The position numbers and the translations under genes are program-made. Source: Oceaniferula flava (GTDB taxonomy: Bacteria > Verrucomicrobiota > Verrucomicrobiia > Verrucomicrobiales > Akkermansiaceae). Taken from it: a stretch of 64,000 bases of DNA. The notes below the pieces were generated by a model that was not told where the DNA came from, searched no databases, and saw nothing but the letters and a program-made list of their open reading frames with translations. The DNA lies in contig NZ_JAFBGL010000005.1 of NCBI RefSeq assembly GCF_016811075.1, positions 248,001 to 312,000 on the forward strand, written 5' to 3'. Position 1 is the first letter of the stretch. Each line of letters opens with the position of its first letter. Below, one piece after another: positions 533 to 27,243 of this stretch.

Positions 533-2179
533 ATGACACTAGAAATGAAAAAACTCGCTACTTACAAAGATGTCGCTCGGCTCGTTTTAAAATACGGTCG
601 TAGTGACGAACTCGATCACCAACATTTTGCCTCCGAGTTCCAGCTGGACGAGCAGGTGGAGCCGAGTGAGGATGCCGTCGAGTTTGCCAAGGACCTCGAG
701 TCGCTCGGGCCCACCTTCATCAAGCTTGGACAGATTCTCTCCAACCGTGGGGACCTGCTGCCGCCAAGCTGGTTGTCGGCCTTGGAGAAATTGCAGGACG
801 ATGTCGAGCCGTTTGCCTTCGAGACGGTAAAGGAGACTATCGAGACAGAAGTCGGCGTTCGCATCTCCAAGTTGTTCGATGAATTTGATGAAACGCCGGT
901 GGCCACCGCCTCGCTCGGTCAGGTACACCTCGCCACGCTCCGGAGCTCGGACACCCGCGTGGCCGTGAAGGTGCAGCGACCGAACATTCGGGAGCAAATC
1001 ATGCGCGAAACCGAGGTCATCGCCAGCATCGCCGAGTTTCTGGAAAAACACACTGAGGTCGGCAAGCAAACCGAACCGACCCGGATGGTGGAGCAATTCC
1101 GTAAATCGATTCTCGCCGAGCTGAATTATCAGCAGGAAGCGGCGAATCTCGAGCGACTGCGCAACAATCTGAAGAAATTCGAGCAGCTGACGGTGCCGAA
1201 ACCTCATCCGGATTTTTGCACCGGCAAGGTGTTGGTGATGGACTACATCGATGGCACCAAGATCACGGACATACCAAAAATTGCCCTTATCGACCTGGAT
1301 GGAAAAGCTCTAGCAGAGGAGTTGTTTTCCGCATATCTTCAGCAAATTTTGTTAGATGGCTTCTTCCACGCCGACCCGCACCCGGGGAACCTTCTGCTGA
1401 CCAAGGAGGGCAAGATCGCGCTCATCGATCTCGGCATGACTGGTGCGGTTCCAGATAGGATCAAAGATCAGCTGCTACAGCTCTTGGCCGCTATTTCCGA
1501 AGGCCGAAGCTCGGATGCCGCCAGCATCACGATGAAAATTGGCACCCCGCGTGAGCACTTTGATCTGCAAGGCTGCCGCGAGGCGATCACTGAGATCGTG
1601 GAAAACTACCAGGGGCTGGACGTGGGTGATATCTACGTCGGCCAGCTGGTCATGGAGATCACCCAAGCCTGTGGCAAAAACGGTCTGCGTATTCCCGACG
1701 TGATGTTCATGTTAGGGAAAATGTTGCTCAACTTGGATGGCGTGGGGAATATTCTGGATCGGCATTTTACACCCAACGATACCATCCGTGACTACACCAC
1801 CACCATTGCCCGCAAGCGCATGCGTGAAGAACTGACGGCGGGTAGCTTGGTGCCTTTCATAATCGAAATCAAGGAGCTGGTGAGTAAGACGCCGGAACGA
1901 CTTAACACTCTGATCGAGCGCATTTCCACTAATCAGATGGAGCTTAAGATCGATGCCATTGATGAGCCCTTACTGCTCAAAGGCCTCTATCAGGTGGCCA
2001 ACCGGATCACCACCGGGTTGATCATCGCCGCCATGATTATAGGTGCTGCAATGTTGATGAATATCGAGACCAGTTTCACCCTGTTAGGTTATCCGGGGCT
2101 AGCGATCCTACTCTTCCTCACAGCGGCGATTGGAGGCACGGTTCTGGTGGTGAATATTTTTCTAACTGAACGAAAATAG
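533..2179 (+). CDS. AarF/UbiB (ABC1) family atypical protein kinase
   Basis: A 548-residue protein of the UbiB/ABC1 atypical kinase family, whose members support ubiquinone biosynthesis or lipid homeostasis at the membrane. Visible motifs in order: K-L-G-Q (about residues 64-67, the family KxGQ signature), the A-S-L-G-Q-V-H loop (about 126-132), V-A-V-K-V-Q-R-P with the nucleotide-binding lysine (about 143-150), H-A-D-P-H-P-G-N catalytic loop (about 279-286) and I-D-L-G metal-binding motif (about 298-301). Two hydrophobic segments near the C-terminus fit the family's membrane anchor. A longer frame begins with GTG at 476, but it overlaps the preceding gene. I chose the ATG at 533; a second ATG at 545 is also possible. 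No strong Shine-Dalgarno sequence is visible. The substrate is unknown, and no ubiquinone genes are nearby. Confidence 0.9.
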   Translation: MTLEMKKLATYKDVARLVLKYGRSDELDHQHFASEFQLDEQVEPSEDAVEFAKDLESLGPTFIKLGQILSNRGDLLPPSWLSALEKLQDDVEPFAFETVKETIETEVGVRISKLFDEFDETPVATASLGQVHLATLRSSDTRVAVKVQRPNIREQIMRETEVIASIAEFLEKHTEVGKQTEPTRMVEQFRKSILAELNYQQEAANLERLRNNLKKFEQLTVPKPHPDFCTGKVLVMDYIDGTKITDIPKIALIDLDGKALAEELFSAYLQQILLDGFFHADPHPGNLLLTKEGKIALIDLGMTGAVPDRIKDQLLQLLAAISEGRSSDAASITMKIGTPREHFDLQGCREAITEIVENYQGLDVGDIYVGQLVMEITQACGKNGLRIPDVMFMLGKMLLNLDGVGNILDRHFTPNDTIRDYTTTIARKRMREELTAGSLVPFIIEIKELVSKTPERLNTLIERISTNQMELKIDAIDEPLLLKGLYQVANRITTGLIIAAMIIGAAMLMNIETSFTLLGYPGLAILLFLTAAIGGTVLVVNIFLTERK

Positions 2180-2203
2180 AAGTAGTTCCGCTAGGGCGCA
2201 AAA

Positions 2204-2227
2204 AAGGCGGGCCAAGCAGCCCGCCTT
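2204..2227 (-). terminator. Rho-independent terminator between convergent genes
   Basis: Arms AAGGCGGGC (2204-2212) and GCCCGCCTT (2219-2227) form a perfect 9-bp stem with a 6-base loop. Six A's at 2200-2205 read as a U-tract on the minus strand, so it best serves the L,D-transpeptidase gene ending at 2252. It could also stop transcription from the AarF/UbiB side, but no T-run follows it on the plus strand. Confidence 0.8.
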
Positions 2228-2251
2228 GATTGGAAATGTGCTAGTGGGGAC

Positions 2252-2875
2252 TTAGAAGTTCCACATTTTACCCTGCTCGGAGTCTTCGAACACCTTGTTG
2301 CTCAGCATGTAAGATGACGGTGGGTTCGGCAGAGGGGAGTCGTCGAGTCGTGGCAGCTTGGCTCCCACGGTGCTATCCCAGGGCTGGGTGGTCGCGACGT
2401 TGACGCGGGTGCCGACCTTGACCAGATCGAAAGCTTTGCGTGCGGTGTTCAATGGCATACGCACACAGCCAGCGGTGCAGGGGTAAGGCTTCACGAAGCC
2501 CCAGTGCATGCCGTAGGCCGGGCTGTAGAAGGACATCCAATAGGTCATCGGGTAGCCACGTCCAGGCTGTCCCTGACGTCGGCGATATTTGGTTTTTGCT
2601 GTGATCCGGTGAGTGCCCTTGGGGGTAGGAGTCGCGGACTTGCCCACAGCCACTGGGCTGGCCAGAAGGACCTTGTCGCCCTCGACGATGTATAGCTTCT
2701 GCGCCGAGGTGCTGATCGCCACTTTCACAGCGGAGCGATTGGTCGGCTGGGTGACGGGAGGATCGAAGGTGAAAGCACTGCCGGGAGATCCGCTGGTGGG
2801 TGTGTTGCAGGAGCTGAAAAGAGAAGCTCCGATGGCGAGCGCGGCGGATGCGAGGATGTTGGATAGATATTTCAT
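2252..2875 (-). CDS. L,D-transpeptidase (YkuD domain) lipoprotein
   Basis: A 207-residue protein with a lipoprotein signal peptide: hydrophobic stretch then L-F-S-S-C, so Cys23 would be lipidated. The YkuD catalytic domain follows (about residues 50-180). Its active-site signature is present: H124 in M-H-W-G-F, then T-A-G-C-V-R-M with catalytic C137 and R139. Enzymes of this family form 3-3 peptidoglycan cross-links or attach envelope proteins to peptidoglycan in the periplasm. The mature protein begins with a Pro/Ser/Thr-rich linker. The gene stands alone, ends at a terminator at 2204-2227, and is divergent from the sulfatase at 3070. The exact acceptor substrate cannot be told from sequence. 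Confidence 0.9.
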   Translation of the reverse strand: MKYLSNILASAALAIGASLFSSCNTPTSGSPGSAFTFDPPVTQPTNRSAVKVAISTSAQKLYIVEGDKVLLASPVAVGKSATPTPKGTHRITAKTKYRRRQGQPGRGYPMTYWMSFYSPAYGMHWGFVKPYPCTAGCVRMPLNTARKAFDLVKVGTRVNVATTQPWDSTVGAKLPRLDDSPLPNPPSSYMLSNKVFEDSEQGKMWNF

Positions 2876-3069
2876 GAGATGGACGATGTGGGTCAGACAT
2901 GAGTTTCCATAATTTTCCGATCAACGCAACCGTTGTCTGCTGACGGAAGAGCCCCTCGCCAGCTGGCATGACCTGATCAGCGGATTTGGGGATTTACTCG
3001 GTGATACGACCGATGCTAAGTCTAAGAAATGCTCTTTTTGGGCCATGACTTAACTTACCAACTCCTATC

Positions 3070-4857
3070 ATGATCAAAACGCTCTCACTTCTTTTCGTCG
3101 CCACCGGCCTGCTCCGTGCGGCAGCTCCCAATGTGGTCATGGTGATCACCGATGATCAAGGCTACGGCGATCTCGGATACACCGGAAACCCCGTGGTCAA
3201 AACGCCTAACATCGATAAGCTGGCGAAGGAGTCCACCGGGCTGAGCGACTACCATGTGGGCCCCACCTGTTCACCAACGCGTTGTTCCCTGCTGACCGGC
3301 CATTGGACCAATCGCACCGGGGTCTGGCATACCATTATGGGGCGGTCGATGCTGCGTGAGAACGAAGTCACTCTCGGCCAGATGTTCAAGGACAACGGCT
3401 ACCAGACTGGCATGTTTGGCAAATGGCACTTGGGCGATAACTACCCATACCGCCCGGAAGACCGCGGCTTCACCGAGGTGTTTCGTCACGGTGGCGGCGG
3501 CGTGGGGCAGACTCCTGATGTCTGGAACAATGCCTACTTCGACGGCTCGTATTTCCACAATGGCGAGATTGTCCCCGCCAAGGGCTTCTGCACCGATGTG
3601 TTTTTCGCGCGGGCGAACTCCTTTATTCGTCAGTGCGCGGAGGAAAAGAAACCATTCTTCGCATATATCTCCACTAACGCACCGCATGGGCCGCTGCACT
3701 GTCCGCAGGAATACTTGGACATGTATTCCGACCAGAAAGACGGTATCGCCGCCTTCTACGGCATGATCACCAACGTCGATGACAACGTGGCCAAGACACG
3801 CGAGCTGCTGAAGTCATTGGGGATTGAAAAGAACACCATCTTTATTTTCACCACCGATAACGGCACGGCCTACGGGGCCAAGGTTTTCAATGCCGGGATG
3901 AAAGGCAAAAAAGGAAGCCCCTACGATGGCGGCCACCGGGTGCCATTTTTCATCCACTGGCCAGCGGGGGGGCTCGACCAAGAGCGCGAGGTGGATACCC
4001 TCACGCACATGGTGGACATCGTTCCCACCTTGCTGGAAATGACCGATTCGAAAAAGCCGGAAAAGGTGAAGTTCGACGGGCTTTCCATCGTCAAGCTGCT
4101 CGACCCCAAGAGCAAAGACTTCGCCTGGCCGGCCCGCTATGTCATCAGCGATTCACAGCGGGTGCGCGACCCGATCAAATGGCGTGGTTCCTCGGTGATG
4201 TCGGAAAAATACCGCCTCATCAATGGCAAGGAACTCTACGATATCGATGCCGATCCGGGACAGAAAAAGAACATCGCCAAGGATCACCCCGAGGTGGTCA
4301 AGGACATGCGCGATTTCTACGATGCGTGGTGGGCCGAGCTAAAACCGACCTTTTCCCAAACCACCGAGATCTACCTCGGTCATCCGGATCACCCGAAGGT
4401 GACACTCACCGCACACGATTGGATTCAAAAAGTCTACCCTCCTTGGCATCAGGGATCAGTCCGATCTAACAAGTGGCAGAAGCCGCCGAAGGAAGGCAAA
4501 CTGAAGCACGTGGGACACTGGGCCGTCAAGGTGGTGGAAGATGGCAAATACCGCATTTCCCTGCGCCGTTGGCCCGCTGAGTCGGGCGCCGCAATCAATG
4601 CCGCCCTGCCTGCTGGCAAGGCCGTTCCGGGTGCTTCCCGTGCCTTCCGCGAAGAGCAAGGAAAAGCGATCGGAGCCACGGCTGCCACGCTGCGCATCGA
4701 CGGTAAGGATCTGGAAACCAAGGCGGTAGAAGGTGATGTCGAGGAAGTCAGCTTCGAGACTGAGCTCAAAGCCGGCTCTTACAAACTGGCTCCCTATTTC
4801 ACCATCGATGCCGGCGAACTCGGTGCTTACTACACGGTAGTGACCCGCCTGGAATAG
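3070..4857 (+). CDS. Secreted S1-family sulfatase (arylsulfatase A-like)
   Basis: A 595-residue sulfatase with a short N-terminal signal peptide (ends near A-A-A-P). The metal-binding D-D-Q-G-Y-G-D-L block is at about residues 28-35. The formylglycine motif C67-S-P-T-R71 is canonical, so Cys67 would need oxidation by a formylglycine-generating enzyme. K-W-H-L-G and T-T-D-N-G further confirm the S1 fold. Residues from about 450 onward form an extra C-terminal extension beyond the usual sulfatase core. Expected role: hydrolysis of sulfate esters on algal polysaccharide fragments in the periplasm or outside the cell. The nearest neighbours are unrelated, so the sugar specificity is open. One of four sulfatase genes in the window. 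Confidence 0.93.
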   Translation: MIKTLSLLFVATGLLRAAAPNVVMVITDDQGYGDLGYTGNPVVKTPNIDKLAKESTGLSDYHVGPTCSPTRCSLLTGHWTNRTGVWHTIMGRSMLRENEVTLGQMFKDNGYQTGMFGKWHLGDNYPYRPEDRGFTEVFRHGGGGVGQTPDVWNNAYFDGSYFHNGEIVPAKGFCTDVFFARANSFIRQCAEEKKPFFAYISTNAPHGPLHCPQEYLDMYSDQKDGIAAFYGMITNVDDNVAKTRELLKSLGIEKNTIFIFTTDNGTAYGAKVFNAGMKGKKGSPYDGGHRVPFFIHWPAGGLDQEREVDTLTHMVDIVPTLLEMTDSKKPEKVKFDGLSIVKLLDPKSKDFAWPARYVISDSQRVRDPIKWRGSSVMSEKYRLINGKELYDIDADPGQKKNIAKDHPEVVKDMRDFYDAWWAELKPTFSQTTEIYLGHPDHPKVTLTAHDWIQKVYPPWHQGSVRSNKWQKPPKEGKLKHVGHWAVKVVEDGKYRISLRRWPAESGAAINAALPAGKAVPGASRAFREEQGKAIGATAATLRIDGKDLETKAVEGDVEEVSFETELKAGSYKLAPYFTIDAGELGAYYTVVTRLE

Positions 4858-4905
4858 CGCTCGGCGATCCCTCCGGCCAAGCAGTGATCACTACTGCCTT
4901 CAATG

Positions 4906-5940
4906 CTAACTTGCCGCCTTGATATCGAGCTGCTCGCAGAATGCCATGCACTCGTCCAAGGGGGCTAGACCGCCAGACGGAGTGAGGTCTCTGCGACAGG
5001 TGGTGGATACCGCTAGACCTTGTTGCAGTGAGGTTTCCACCGCTTTGTCGAGATACAGTCCTTCGAGGAAGCCGGCGACAAAAGCGTGATCGACCCCGGC
5101 CGATCCCACGCGTTGAGACCAGGGGAGGAAGTATCCAGTTTGATGGTAGAAATTCCCCTCGGTGTCCAAGTAGACCGCCGCAGTGCCGCACTGCAGGATA
5201 ACAGCTTTGTGCAGGCCCGTTTTCAGCAATTGCTCACAGGCGTCCTTGGCGAGGTCGGCGTCGAATTGGTTTTCCGAATACAGTTCCTGATTCAAAATAC
5301 TCTCAGCCACCCGGTCGTTGATGATCAGGTAGTCCGCTTGGGACAGCGCTTCGGTGAAGTCGTCGAGTTTCGCTTGTTGATCGACGGGAGCGATTTCCAC
5401 CACGGTGGTGATCCCTTGTTTTTTAGCATCGCGCAGCAGCTGGGCGGCACCGGAGCGACCGTATTCAGGGTTGTGATTATCCATTTTCCCAAGTGCGCCA
5501 AGGGAGCCGAGTAGGAGAATCTTCGGCTTCACGGCACGCAGTTTTACATCGGCGCGGGAGAAGGTCTCTCCAATGCCGCAGAAGTGAAAGCAGGTGTGCT
5601 TGCCGGTTTTTTCCACGGTGTAAACATCGGTGTAACCGGTGCTTTCACCTTCCACGGGCTGCAGCTGGGAGGTGTCGATTTTATGCTCGGTGCAGCAGTC
5701 GACAATGAACTTGCCGTCCAGATCCTTGCCCACCTTCGCCGCGGCGAATAACGGGAAGGGCACCCGCAGCTTGGCCAGGTTGATCAGGGTGTTGAGCGGA
5801 GCACCGCCATTGCTGACCATCTCGCGACTGACGCGGGTGGCGGAGCGTTCATCAGGATAGTGGTCGACGACTTTTTGGTAATCGACAACAAAGGTTCCAA
5901 CCGCAAGCAGCGGTGGGTAGGCGGGATCAGACTTCTTCAT
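4906..5940 (-). CDS. PfkB-family sugar kinase
   Basis: A 344-residue cytoplasmic carbohydrate kinase of the PfkB/ribokinase superfamily. The N-terminal N-G-G-A-P-L-N block (about residues 44-50) matches the substrate-binding G-G-x-x-x-N signature. The second signature near the C-terminus reads V-G-S-A-G-V-D-H-A-F (278-287). D284 fits the catalytic base, but the usual anion-hole G-A-G-D is changed to A-G-V-D. Its start overlaps the end of the upstream Mpv17-like gene by 14 bases, pointing to translational coupling. The phosphorylated substrate (sugar or nucleoside) cannot be assigned. It runs convergent with the sulfatase at 3070, with 48 bases between them. Confidence 0.85.
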   Translation of the reverse strand: MKKSDPAYPPLLAVGTFVVDYQKVVDHYPDERSATRVSREMVSNGGAPLNTLINLAKLRVPFPLFAAAKVGKDLDGKFIVDCCTEHKIDTSQLQPVEGESTGYTDVYTVEKTGKHTCFHFCGIGETFSRADVKLRAVKPKILLLGSLGALGKMDNHNPEYGRSGAAQLLRDAKKQGITTVVEIAPVDQQAKLDDFTEALSQADYLIINDRVAESILNQELYSENQFDADLAKDACEQLLKTGLHKAVILQCGTAAVYLDTEGNFYHQTGYFLPWSQRVGSAGVDHAFVAGFLEGLYLDKAVETSLQQGLAVSTTCRRDLTPSGGLAPLDECMAFCEQLDIKAAS

Positions 5941-6775
5941 CTTCGGTAGCGGTAAGGATAGACAGGAGCAGCACCCAGATGGTGACTGCGAGAATGGCGA
6001 GTGGCAGCTGAAGTTCAGCCGGGAAGCAGTAGATGATGGAGACCATGGGAATCCAGAATGCCCAGTTGGTGATCAGCACAGGGAGAATCTGAGTTCCCCA
6101 AAATTGTCTGAACGGTGACATCTGAACCTTCACTTGATCGAAGGAGAAACCTTTGTTTTTCCAGAGGTAGAGAATTGTTTGGTATGGGTTGGCGAAGAAC
6201 ACGGTCCAGACAAACTGATCGACCAGCACCTTGGGGACCAGCACCTGCCAGGAGCTACCGGTGCCAAAGAGATTGCCTTGCAGGGTGTAAAAGAAGCTTT
6301 GGATCACTCCGAGCACTCCGAACATCATGAGATTGAACAGGGCGTTGCCGCTGTTGGCCTTGGTCCATCGTTTTTCCTTGGACATCAGGACCTTGACCAC
6401 CTCGGCTAGAAGTCCCACGGCGAGTCCCATGCCGAGGAAGGGAAAGAGCAGACCCATGCGTGTCTGCAGGGCATCGAGTGCGGTGAAGAAACTTTGAGTG
6501 GCTGGAACCGCGTAATAGAGCACAGCGATCAATGCCATCACGCCCCAGACAAAGCAGGCGGGTTTCAGGCTCTGGCGGGCGGCGCTGAGCCCGGCGCGAG
6601 CACTGTTGGCCACCATGTCGTCCCAGTAAGGTGCGTCGGCTGGGATGTCCGGCATCGAGTTCCAGTCGAGAACCTCCGTTGGCAAAATATTGCGCGCACG
6701 GTAGAATCGCCTCACCGAAGAAGGCGGGCTACTGGATGCCGTGGCCGCGGCAAAATTATCATTGAGTATAAACAT
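5927..6775 (-). CDS. Polytopic membrane protein resembling the Mpv17/PMP22 family
   Basis: A 282-residue integral membrane protein with about five hydrophobic segments. Its C-terminal half has the order of features seen in Mpv17/PMP22 proteins: K-V-L-V-D-Q-F-V-W, a short loop with K-N-K-G-F-S-F, then F-W...L-I-T-N-W-A-F-W-I-P and a final hydrophobic helix. Mpv17 proteins are mainly known from mitochondria and peroxisomes, where they act as small pores. The family assignment is by eye and not certain. I chose the ATG at 6775 because the longer frame (to 6979) adds a non-hydrophobic, unconvincing leader. The gene overlaps the PfkB kinase by 14 bases, so they probably form one operon. Function in this bacterium is unknown. 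Confidence 0.6.
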   Translation of the reverse strand: MFILNDNFAAATASSSPPSSVRRFYRARNILPTEVLDWNSMPDIPADAPYWDDMVANSARAGLSAARQSLKPACFVWGVMALIAVLYYAVPATQSFFTALDALQTRMGLLFPFLGMGLAVGLLAEVVKVLMSKEKRWTKANSGNALFNLMMFGVLGVIQSFFYTLQGNLFGTGSSWQVLVPKVLVDQFVWTVFFANPYQTILYLWKNKGFSFDQVKVQMSPFRQFWGTQILPVLITNWAFWIPMVSIIYCFPAELQLPLAILAVTIWVLLLSILTATEDEEV

Positions 6776-25441: not shown

Positions 25442-25975
25442 ATGAAACGATTCAACATGTTCGCGGCGGCCATCGCCCTAATCAGCATGCCGATGCTCCA
25501 GGCGGCCAACCAGCCGGCGGCGGTGAAGGTCGGTGACAAGGCTCCCGACTTCACCCTCACCAGCACCGATCACAAGCAGGTGTCACTCTCGGACTATGCT
25601 GGTAAGCAGCTGATTCTGGTGTTCAGTAGGGCCCATTGGTGACCGTTCTGCGTCAAGCAGCTGGTGCAGCTGCAAGCGAAGAAAAAAGCGTTCGATCAAC
25701 TCGGCGTGGAGATGGTCTGTGTCTTTCGTGAGGAACGTGGTGGACTGGCAGGGGCGAAGAAAACCGCCGACTCCACCGGGTTTTCCCCCCTCCTTCTCGA
25801 TTACCCGATCGCCAAAACCAAGGCCTACTCGCAGGGTAGCTACTCGACCTATCTCATCGGCAAAGACGGCAAGATCAAAGCCGAGCTAAACGGCTTGAAA
25901 AAAAATCGCCCGACCGCTGACGCCATCGCAGCCAAGGTCAGCGAAGTCTTCAAACCAACCCCAACCAAACCATGA
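25442..25975 (+). CDS. Peroxiredoxin-like selenoprotein (in-frame TGA at 25640-25642)
   Basis: Read through TGA as selenocysteine, this is a 177-residue AhpC/TSA-type thioredoxin-fold protein. The Sec signal peptide is M-K-R-F-N-M...L-Q-A-A. The motif is R-A-H-W-U67-P-F-C70. Both halves are in one frame, and the second half continues F-R-E-E-R-G-G-L. The paralogue at 44020-44550 is alignable through this region and has R-A-H-W-C-P-F-C, so TGA sits exactly at the peroxidatic Cys. A 7-bp hairpin follows at 25657-25673. Expected role: thiol peroxidase or disulfide reductase in the envelope. The stop overlaps the next gene's start (ATGA). I chose the ATG at 25442 because it begins the signal peptide; upstream frames are unlikely. 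No selA, selB, selC or selD is in the window. Confidence 0.85.
25657..25673 (+). promoter_or_regulatory. Candidate bacterial SECIS hairpin for the peroxiredoxin-like selenoprotein
   Basis: GCAGCTG (25657-25663) pairs perfectly with CAGCTGC (25667-25673) around a GTG loop; GGT lies at the apex. The stem begins 15 bases after the TGA, near the spacing of the E. coli fdhF element. Caution: the stem is largely the coding sequence for Q-L-V-Q-L, and the Cys paralogue keeps five of the seven pairs, so the hairpin alone is not discriminating. Confidence 0.5.
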
Positions 25976-27243
25976 TCCTCCGGACTCTCATCATCGCCAT
26001 GGCTCTTGTGAGCATCGCCTCAGCGGCTTATTCACCGAAGCCTGGCGACCGCTTTCCTGATCTCAAGTTTCCTTCCATCACCGGCGGCGAGCAAGTTGCC
26101 GTTTCTTCTCTCACTGAGAAAAAGCTGATGCTGCACCTCTTTGCCTCCTGGTGAGCAGGCTGTCGCAGGCATGTGCCAGGTTGGCATCAGCAAACAAAGA
26201 AACTCGTCGCCAATGGTCAGTTGGCTGTCGCTGGGATTGTGCAGGAGCAGCACCCTGATAGGGCCGCGCTCTATATGCAATGGCAGCAGATGGACTGGCC
26301 GGTCTTGTCCGATCCCTTCAATGATCTCGCCATCTCCGCCGTGCCCATCACCCTACTCATTGATGAACACGGCATCATCCGCTATCGCAACCCCAAGCCG
26401 AAAGACCTTCAGCGATTTCTGCAAACGACGTATTCAGACCAGGCGGAAAAGCAGCCGGTCCGCTTGCTGCCGCGGGGGATCGAGGAGTTAGAGTCTCTAC
26501 TCGCCCAGTCGCCGAAGAATGCGACGGCGCACTTCCGACTTGGTGTGGCCTACCGGATGCGCTTCGATTCTGAAAAGAGGCAATTTGACGACTTCGCCAA
26601 GGCGATGAGCCACTGGCAGACCGCGCTGGAGCTCAACCCGAACCAATACATCTGGCGTCGGCGCATTCAGCAGTATGGTCCCCGCCTTGATAAACCTTAC
26701 TCGTTTTACGATTGGGTTAGCCAAGCTCGCCGCGATATCTCGCAGCGGGGAGAGGTCGCACTACCACTGAGTGCGGAACCTTCGGGCGCGGAGTTCGCGG
26801 TTCCTTCACGATCTGCTGGGCGCGGGAAAAAAGAGACAGCTCTCAAGCACCCCGACCCCCAAGGCCAAGTAGCGCGTGATACCAAGGGACTGGTGAGCTC
26901 TCGCACCGTGATCGTCGCCTCCACCAATCGTAAGAAGTCCGCCGTGCGCGTTCATCTCACCCTGCAACCCGGCGAGCTAACAACGTGGACCAATGATGCC
27001 GGTAACGTCAGCTTTCATCTCGACCCCGATTCTCCCGTGGAGGTGCGCGATTTGAAAATCCCAACACTGCCGAAGTCGGACAGCAGCGCGGAAACGCGGG
27101 TCGTTGAGTTCGAGTTGCACCCAAAAGCCGGTCAGCCTCTGCCCGACAAGATCTCAGCCTCCGCCTTCTACTACGTCTGCACCAAGAGCGATCACACCTG
27201 CCAATTTCTGCGCAGCGACATGATGATCACCTTGAAAAAATGA
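25972..27243 (+). CDS. Thioredoxin-like selenoprotein with DsbD-alpha-like tail (in-frame TGA at 26152-26154)
   Basis: Read through TGA, this is a 423-residue exported protein. The signal peptide ends near S-A-A-Y. The thioredoxin-fold domain (about 25-150) has the active site L-F-A-S-W-U61-A-G-C64-R-R, where thioredoxins have W-C-x-x-C, and a cis-Pro block S-A-V-P-I-T-L-L. The part after TGA is in the same frame and gives a normal continuation of the fold. A TPR-like helical region follows (about 170-245). The C-terminal beta-rich region ends Y-Y-V-C-T-K-S-D-H-T-C, like a DsbD alpha-domain cysteine pair. Likely role: envelope thiol-disulfide exchange. It overlaps the upstream selenoprotein by four bases (ATGA). 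A hairpin with a GGT loop lies at 26174-26186. Confidence 0.85.
26174..26186 (+). promoter_or_regulatory. Candidate bacterial SECIS hairpin for the thioredoxin-like selenoprotein
   Basis: TGCCA (26174-26178) pairs with TGGCA (26182-26186) around a GGT loop; a G-T wobble can extend it by one pair. The loop begins 25 bases after the TGA at 26152-26154. The small stem with a GGT apex resembles the E. coli fdhF selenocysteine insertion element. It has not been tested against a covariance model. Confidence 0.6.

Follow-up and report, generated by a model that had tools for sequence, protein, structure and literature searches.

The locus raises the question of whether a TGA codon inside a gene for a thioredoxin-like protein is read as selenocysteine (Sec) and, if so, what kind of protein the complete product is. 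The gene lies in the window (the whole stretch of 64,000 nucleotides that was analysed) and was originally predicted, from the letters alone, to encode a selenoprotein with further C-terminal domains. It contains a single in-frame TGA, at the first position of a CxxC-type site, and the frame is open from there to the terminal TGA (Table 1). Both this arrangement, which in the read-through product gives F-A-S-W-U-A-G-C-R around residue 61, and the predicted four-base ATGA overlap with the upstream gene, whose stop codon occupies positions 25973-25975, were borne out.

Table 1. Coordinates of the features discussed; positions are those of the window unless another locus is named.
Feature	Position	Strand	Basis or remark
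Predicted Sec gene, 423 residues including Sec61	25972-27243	+	start ATG 25972, end TGA 27241-27243
Hydrophobic N-terminal segment, probable export signal	25972-26028	+	sequence; AF2 helix 2-13
TlpA/ResA/CcmG-type thioredoxin domain, residues 22-155	26035-26436	+	Pfam AhpC-TSA/Redoxin; VIA-align to 4grf
Predicted UGA for Sec (U61) in W-U-A-G-C	26152-26154	+	TGA in 69/69 homologues
SECIS-like hairpin	26173-26187	+	arms 26173-26177 / 26183-26187, loop 26178-26182 AGGTT
TPR-like helical part, residues 165-235	26464-26676	+	Pfam TPR_11, AF2 model
Highly conserved linker YIWRRRIQQYGPRLDKPYSFYDWV..AR, residues 226-253	26647-26730	+	homologue alignment
C-terminal DsbD-alpha-like beta-sandwich, residues 296-423	26857-27240	+	fold and profile comparison
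Cys403	27178-27180	+	conserved in 68/68 homologues (of 69) reaching it
Cys410	27199-27201	+	conserved in 67/67 homologues (of 69) reaching it
Prx-like gene, in-frame TGA 25640-25642, HW-U-PFC	25442-25975	+	overlaps Sec thioredoxin gene; possible partner
Sister-group member L163	1301-2269	-	W-A-S-W-U-G-C
Sister-group member L164	261-1169	+	W-A-S-W-U-G-C
Sister-group member L165	1307-2224	-	W-A-S-W-U-G-C

The in-frame UGA, its hairpin and the selenocysteine machinery

Relatives of the gene were found in 18 of the 386 genomes of the host order, at 44 loci in a species-level genome collection, and in two of the 387 genomes (the window's own included) of an even sample of the host phylum. L055 is an Acidobacteriota record; in its phylum 14 of 297 genomes gave a match, one of which (L099) is only TlpA-like. 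In that of L061, a Planctomycetota record, 41 of 392 genomes did so at E <= 7e-81; all 41 rows carry an inner TGA, and 21 of them are read at the site. From these searches we assembled 69 distinct homologues, mainly from Verrucomicrobiota, Planctomycetota and Acidobacteriota and with the window included, after removing same-genome duplicates between searches. This set leaves out L052, L076, L077, L079 and L082, which end short of residue 61, L098, which is likewise short of the site, and L099, which has TGC and matches in the thioredoxin part only; L166 and L167, pieces of members with TGA, are additional to it. The closest named relatives are Akkermansiaceae MAGs, at 70% identity, which points to a verrucomicrobiote as the host.

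In every one of the 69 homologues residue 61 is encoded by TGA, and the protein is conserved on both sides of it. W60, site 61, G63, C64 and Pro125 are invariant, the last standing at what we take to be the cis-proline place of TlpA/ResA/CcmG thioredoxins. No further stop interrupts the matched stretches except in L122, where an extra one occurs because the match runs past the end of the gene; L036 entered the order search with TGA and TAG, and its tblastn match holds one stop. Behind the TGA, the divergence from the nearest homologue, L039, is 0.625 per site at third positions and 0.199 at first and second positions together (360 codons). This excess at third positions, with the TGA present throughout the family, argues that the arrangement is not due to chance and has been kept as under protein selection. 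Homologues with a true stop and without a conserved downstream part would have spoken against the original prediction; instead, the TGA and the downstream protein are kept together.

A tree of 68 rows (without L069, 310 residues long and cut by its contig) is arranged largely by phylum, with three changes for Planctomycetota, five for Verrucomicrobiota and seven for Acidobacteriota, where shuffled trees need about 20, 20 and 13, respectively. From this grouping we infer that the family is old, with some transfers. No relatives of the Sec thioredoxin were found in the viral contigs and phages searched. Plasmids gave nine matching records, and the eight listed cover 28-31% of the query, in its thioredoxin part, under the names TlpA (five), redoxin, alkyl hydroperoxide reductase or none.

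The hairpin predicted behind the TGA, TGCCA-GGT-TGGCA, is present at 26174-26186, its first base being the 20th after the TGA, but the conserved register lies one base away from it, with GTGCC/GGCAY as the family stem. Bacterial SECIS hairpins sit at such a distance behind the UGA and carry a G in the apical loop. All five base pairs are formed in 69/69 homologues, with compensatory changes among eight combinations of arms: GTGCC/GGCAC (47 homologues), GTGCC/GGCAT (10), GTGCC/GGTAC (six), CTGCC/GGCAG (two) and, once each, GTACC/GGTAC, ATTCC/GGAAT, ATACC/GGTAT and GTACC/GGTAT. The loop is NG[GT]NT in all 69. In an analysis of 43 homologues (42 distinct rows), 98.8% of 252 cells are paired, and three pairs are changed on both sides, a number reached by 10 of 500 shuffles. 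The covariation score is 0.231, compared with 0.142 in shuffles, and none of 500 shuffles is as high, a count that carries the tool's warning that it is not a probability. Sliding the hairpin to six other registers gives a covariation of at most 0.122, and RNAalifold finds the same helix without constraint. Codon choice is constrained at Val68, Pro69 and residue 70, and also at Ala62 (three of 83 control columns have p < 0.001); Val68 is GTG in 41 of the 43 homologues where codon usage expects 15.4.

When sequences are folded singly by energy, the window's own 60-nt RNA takes another minimum-energy fold (z +1.37) and has four of the hairpin pairs, in the centroid only, and many of the 43 homologues also favour another minimum-energy fold. 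The outer pair 26172-26188 is non-standard in the window and standard in 62 of the 69 homologues, and Rfam scans gave no SECIS family match at the site. In L075 (5124-5171) the stem is ATTCC/GGAAT, together with changes of Val68 to Ile and His72 to Asn. Pairing has thus been maintained there alongside residue changes, and the RNA structure may have driven the change in the protein.

A search of the window's own genome for the sel genes, on which the prediction depended, found the complete set over curated cut-offs: SelA (499.2 bits), SelB (310.9 bits), SelD (372.1 bits) and a tRNA-Sec with anticodon TCA (57.6 bits, cut-off 47). The SelD gene (L018, G000:C3:6010-6936) has one inner TGA as well, so that SelD may itself be a selenoprotein. 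Within the order, selA (E <= 1e-40) occurs in 16 of the 18 genomes that carry the family, compared with 101 of the 368 that do not (Fisher p 2e-7, uncorrected for kinship). Among the 44 carrier genomes of the species-level collection, SelA is over its cut-off in 34, gives any match in 38 and gives none in six. The selA gene lies upstream of the Sec thioredoxin gene in four of 48 contexts, L064 among them, accompanied by selB in one and by tRNA-Sec in two that are near-identical. In L059, selA, selB and the Sec thioredoxin gene follow one another in this order (1409-6353) and precede a Prx-like gene whose in-frame TGA is at 6656, a row of same-strand genes that looks like a small selenium operon. 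In the near-identical pair, L068 and L078, the tRNA-Sec is placed between selA and the Sec thioredoxin gene, and the same interval holds a further frame of ~394 residues.

That the TGA is a true stop, whether in a pseudogene, through a sequencing error or as the end of a short peptide (25972-26154), would agree with the table 11 list of open reading frames, which breaks the gene there, but it has next to no probability in view of the TGA at the same codon in 69/69 homologues, the lack of other stops apart from L122 and the invariant residues behind it. A suppressor or an altered code could instead have the UGA read as Trp, Gly or Cys, and the frame would be open under any such code. However, the genome has the full Sec machinery, a paired hairpin follows the codon, the UGA replaces the catalytic Cys of a WCxxC site, and both this gene and its upstream neighbour terminate in TGA, so we regard such a reading as very improbable. 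Conservation, the hairpin and the sel genes were our grounds for rejecting other recoding, as they were, with the conservation taken behind the TGA, for rejecting a pseudogene or a sequencing error. Comparison of the homologues shows that the UGA at codon 61, the protein flanking it and a base-pair-compensated hairpin have been kept, and that the genome has Sec machinery; the codon would accordingly be expected to specify Sec.

Domains of the read-through protein

The AF2 model of the window protein, made with 41 sequences, has a pLDDT of 90.6 and a pTM of 0.86. The predicted thioredoxin fold is clear in it (VIA-align Z 12.5, rmsd 2.0, 129 residues aligned to 4grf). The predicted TPR-like part is indeed helical, and its identity is weaker: TPR_11 scores 26.4 bits in the window protein, compared with a gathering score of 26.8, and matches at E <= 0.1 in 29 of 41 homologues. 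Only AhpC-TSA and Redoxin pass the Pfam cut-offs in the window protein. The best-conserved part of the protein is the linker around residues 226-253, in which R229-R231, Q233, Q234, G236, P237, K241-Y243, F245, Y246 and W248 are found in 69/69 homologues. A hydrophobic N-terminal segment is present in 54 of the 69 by a simple scale, with start codons picked by a script near 60 codons upstream, and the protein is probably exported.

The protein is like TlpA/ResA/CcmG thioredoxins in its fold, the place of its active site and its probable export. What sets it apart from them is that the active site begins with a predicted Sec and that the domain is followed by two more parts. It might be a Sec-containing cytochrome c maturation protein, in the role of CcmG or ResA. 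The closest solved structures do include ResA, CcmG and DsbE, and three of 41 homologues have a weak match to the CcmH/CycH TPR family. However, GVXGXPETF, given as the CcmG fingerprint in the available text of PMC5909903, is absent from the window protein and from the displayed rows of the homologue alignment (ResA is also without it), and the neighbour clusters and translations that were inspected showed no obvious gene for cytochrome maturation. We therefore consider this role improbable.

The tail had been predicted to resemble the DsbD alpha domain, and this is supported by its fold and, less strongly, by profile comparison, with adaptin ears scoring nearly as high. Modelled alone, the C-terminal 128 residues have a pLDDT of 94.1, and C403 and C410 lie on neighbouring strands. 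The first 14 Foldseek rows comprise 13 DsbD N-terminal domains and, in row 10, a FixG-related one (E 3e-4 to 1.5e-3). The first ten VIA-align rows are N-terminal domains of ScsB or DsbD (Z 8.9-8.0, rmsd 3.1-3.6, 101-110 aligned), followed by adaptin ears at Z 7.9, and the tool treats gaps under 1 as tied. With hhalign, the tail matched a DsbD N-terminal profile at 85.1% over 110 columns, with a score of 39.5 and both Cys in register; the profile has 31 rows, which are the own-genome sequence twice and 29 relatives, with E. coli DsbD added, and without the latter the match is at 66.7%. For comparison with the score of 39.5, the highest among 200 column shuffles was 22.0, and reversal gave 11.4, the Trx domain 17.4 and the TPR part 8.7. 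No profile match to the tail was obtained with the N-terminal domain of E. coli DsbD by itself, and the tail profile found four matches among solved-structure sequences, at E 0.29 or worse. Weak Pfam matches that lie in or possibly in the tail are to AP5B1_barrel (1/41 homologues) and NPCBM_assoc (2/41). The tail is like the DsbD/ScsB alpha domain in its fold and, in the profile alignment, in the register of its Cys pair. The protein differs from DsbD/ScsB in carrying the sandwich on the same chain as a Sec thioredoxin domain, which precedes it, and in lacking the membrane domain: DsbD_TM (the membrane beta domain) gave no match in the window protein at E up to 1.

The protein could also be a true selenoprotein in which a TlpA-like reductase acts alone, the sandwich being a structural or binding part, as in adaptin ears, and the Cys pair a structural disulfide. 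The tie between adaptin ears, from Z 7.9 down, and the lower DsbD rows would fit this, as would the lack of a match to E. coli DsbD alone and the existence of sister selenoproteins that are tail-less (see below). Against it, DsbD or ScsB alpha domains fill the top of both structural searches, and the two Cys, besides lying on neighbouring strands, are in register with the DsbD/ScsB pair when the profiles are aligned. On balance we find a purely structural tail unlikely, and we prefer a DsbD-alpha-like tail with a Cys pair that would take part in the chemistry.

Relatives, cysteine versions and known selenoproteins

An exchange of Cys and Sec at residue 61, which the original prediction had proposed to look for in homologues, was not found, all 69 having TGA. 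No Cys orthologue was met in the order (386 genomes), the host's own phylum (387) or the phyla of L055 (297) and L061 (392), in searches where a Cys codon at position 61 would outscore a stop. Among the weaker rows from the phylum of L061, 15 of 21 were read at the site. Eight of these resemble TlpA, have TGC at the site and lack the RRRxQQ linker; three belong to a W-U-GC sister group and two are Sec-less paralogues. Of the other two, one is a fragment of a genuine family member and carries the TGA, and one lies behind the site. The Sec-less paralogues are L162 (301-2058, +), which has Ser and a tail too divergent for its Cys pair to be aligned surely, and L158 (1432-2478, -), which has Asp and is of the sister type. 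Both genomes also encode a Sec member of the family.

The three members of the sister group, L163-L165, are probable selenoproteins, judging from their sequences. In each, the TPR-like part is accompanied by a related linker, the frame ends where the DsbD-like tail would start, and a CTGCC/GGCAG hairpin stands behind the TGA. Their best NCBIfam model is NF041054, with 104-163 of 300 bits, below the cut-off. Like the sister group and the ResA-like WAxxUGC proteins of NF041054, the window protein has a TlpA-like domain in which a predicted Sec follows W, with a TPR-like part behind it and a related linker (RKQIW..E.P..FY). Unlike the tail-less U-G-C sister group, it has U-A-G-C, one residue more, and the DsbD-like tail. 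Since the Sec thioredoxin and the TPR-like part are shared, it is the U-A-G-C site and the tail that mark the present family. Every one of the 41 homologues is matched by NF041054, which has the best E-value of the NCBIfam models; it scores 58.4 of 300 bits in the window protein, in which no NCBIfam model reaches its cut-off.

Among published selenoproteins, those described as Trx-like 1 or thiol-disulfide isomerase-like and as 'Redoxin family' are similar in having a Sec UxxC site in a Trx-like domain (available parts of PMC2398784 and PMC13188914). By the descriptions there they are set apart from the window family, as Trx-like 1 has many Cys homologues (7,880 in GOS, according to the same parts of PMC2398784) and TPR or DsbD-like parts are not mentioned. 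Fragments of the window family may have been counted under Trx-like 1 or Redoxin in single-read metagenomes. TsoB, listed as 'Rhodanese/DsbD fusion-like' in PMC13188914, is like the window protein in being a selenoprotein with a DsbD-like part, going by its name, and unlike it in having a rhodanese and two Sec (UxxxxU), going by the table's description. As far as its available text goes, this review, of May 2026, counts 119 selenoprotein families or subfamilies, and its table does not name a Sec-thioredoxin/TPR/DsbD-like architecture. Some members could be hidden under the table's UxxC 'Redoxin family protein' and 'thiol-disulfide isomerase-like protein' entries. Nor is the architecture described in the available parts of PMC9312934, PMC12013277, PMC2398784, PMC4807772, PMC5909903 and PMC7539508, the last of which records TlpA selenoproteins in algae. 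Literature searches with the active-site motif, and for selenoprotein, thioredoxin and TPR in Verrucomicrobia, did not find it either. The claim that the combination is undescribed thus holds once the DsbD-like tail is included, but not for the Sec thioredoxin with a TPR-like part, which is common to the sister group near NF041054. As far as we have searched, this is a new family of a known type, which is new in its build and lacks Cys members.

In its available sections, the deep-Sep paper (PMC12013277) notes that selenoprotein families are usually found via Cys versions and states families without Cys homologues as the weak point of the method. The window family is an example of this blind spot in widespread phyla. 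Families known almost only with Sec do exist, several of them in algae (available text of PMC7539508).

A possible electron relay and the neighbouring genes

We think it likely, taking all parts jointly, that this is a genuine Sec gene of an unnamed family, that its UGA is read as Sec, that the product is exported, and that residues 61/64 and 403/410 form a relay. Electrons would come from a DsbD/CcdA-type membrane transporter, such as the genome's own 717-residue DsbD-like protein. Sec61/Cys64 of the thioredoxin domain would exchange them with Cys403/Cys410 in the same chain, and they would end at an exported acceptor, perhaps the neighbouring Prx-like UxxC selenoprotein. By such an exchange, one soluble protein would join the roles of the DsbD gamma and alpha domains. 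The electron path, the partner and the substrate are what we infer for this relay, and either Cys/Sec pair could be the donor. A ScsB-TlpA-peroxiredoxin pathway of the envelope was reportedly described by Cho et al. in 2012.

A further idea, which we hold tentatively and with some doubt, is that the relay is Sec-obligate: a self-contained envelope system in which a Sec thioredoxin is fused to its own DsbD-alpha-type partner and in which Cys is unable to replace Sec. The chemistry would appear to be impossible with Cys because the searches of several phyla met no Cys orthologue, and the two paralogues in which Sec loss was seen have Ser or Asp, rather than Cys, in its place. If the idea is true, the family would escape methods that depend on Cys homologues. 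With a plain thioredoxin site and no Cys versions, the question 'why selenium, not sulfur' could be tested by a simple U61C comparison, and the effect could be measured with a partner that the protein brings along, its own DsbD-like domain.

A TGA-bearing Prx-like gene (W-U-P-[FY]-C) adjoins the Sec thioredoxin gene in five of 48 contexts, many of which are short; it is upstream in the window and downstream in L053, L059, L076 and L077. Four of these Prx-like genes have a thioredoxin-dependent thiol peroxidase as their best NCBIfam model, and the one in the window has ResA; no score is above its cut-off. Clustering of the neighbours revealed no general partner, and the commonest cluster (six loci) is sulfatase-like by eye. 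The DsbD-like protein of the window's own genome is encoded at L100 553-2706 (G000:C8), and a second, shorter DsbD_TM match is also present. The N-terminal domain of the L100 protein ends in ARWQICDDDSCVDEP, which recalls the tail motif of the Sec thioredoxin family.
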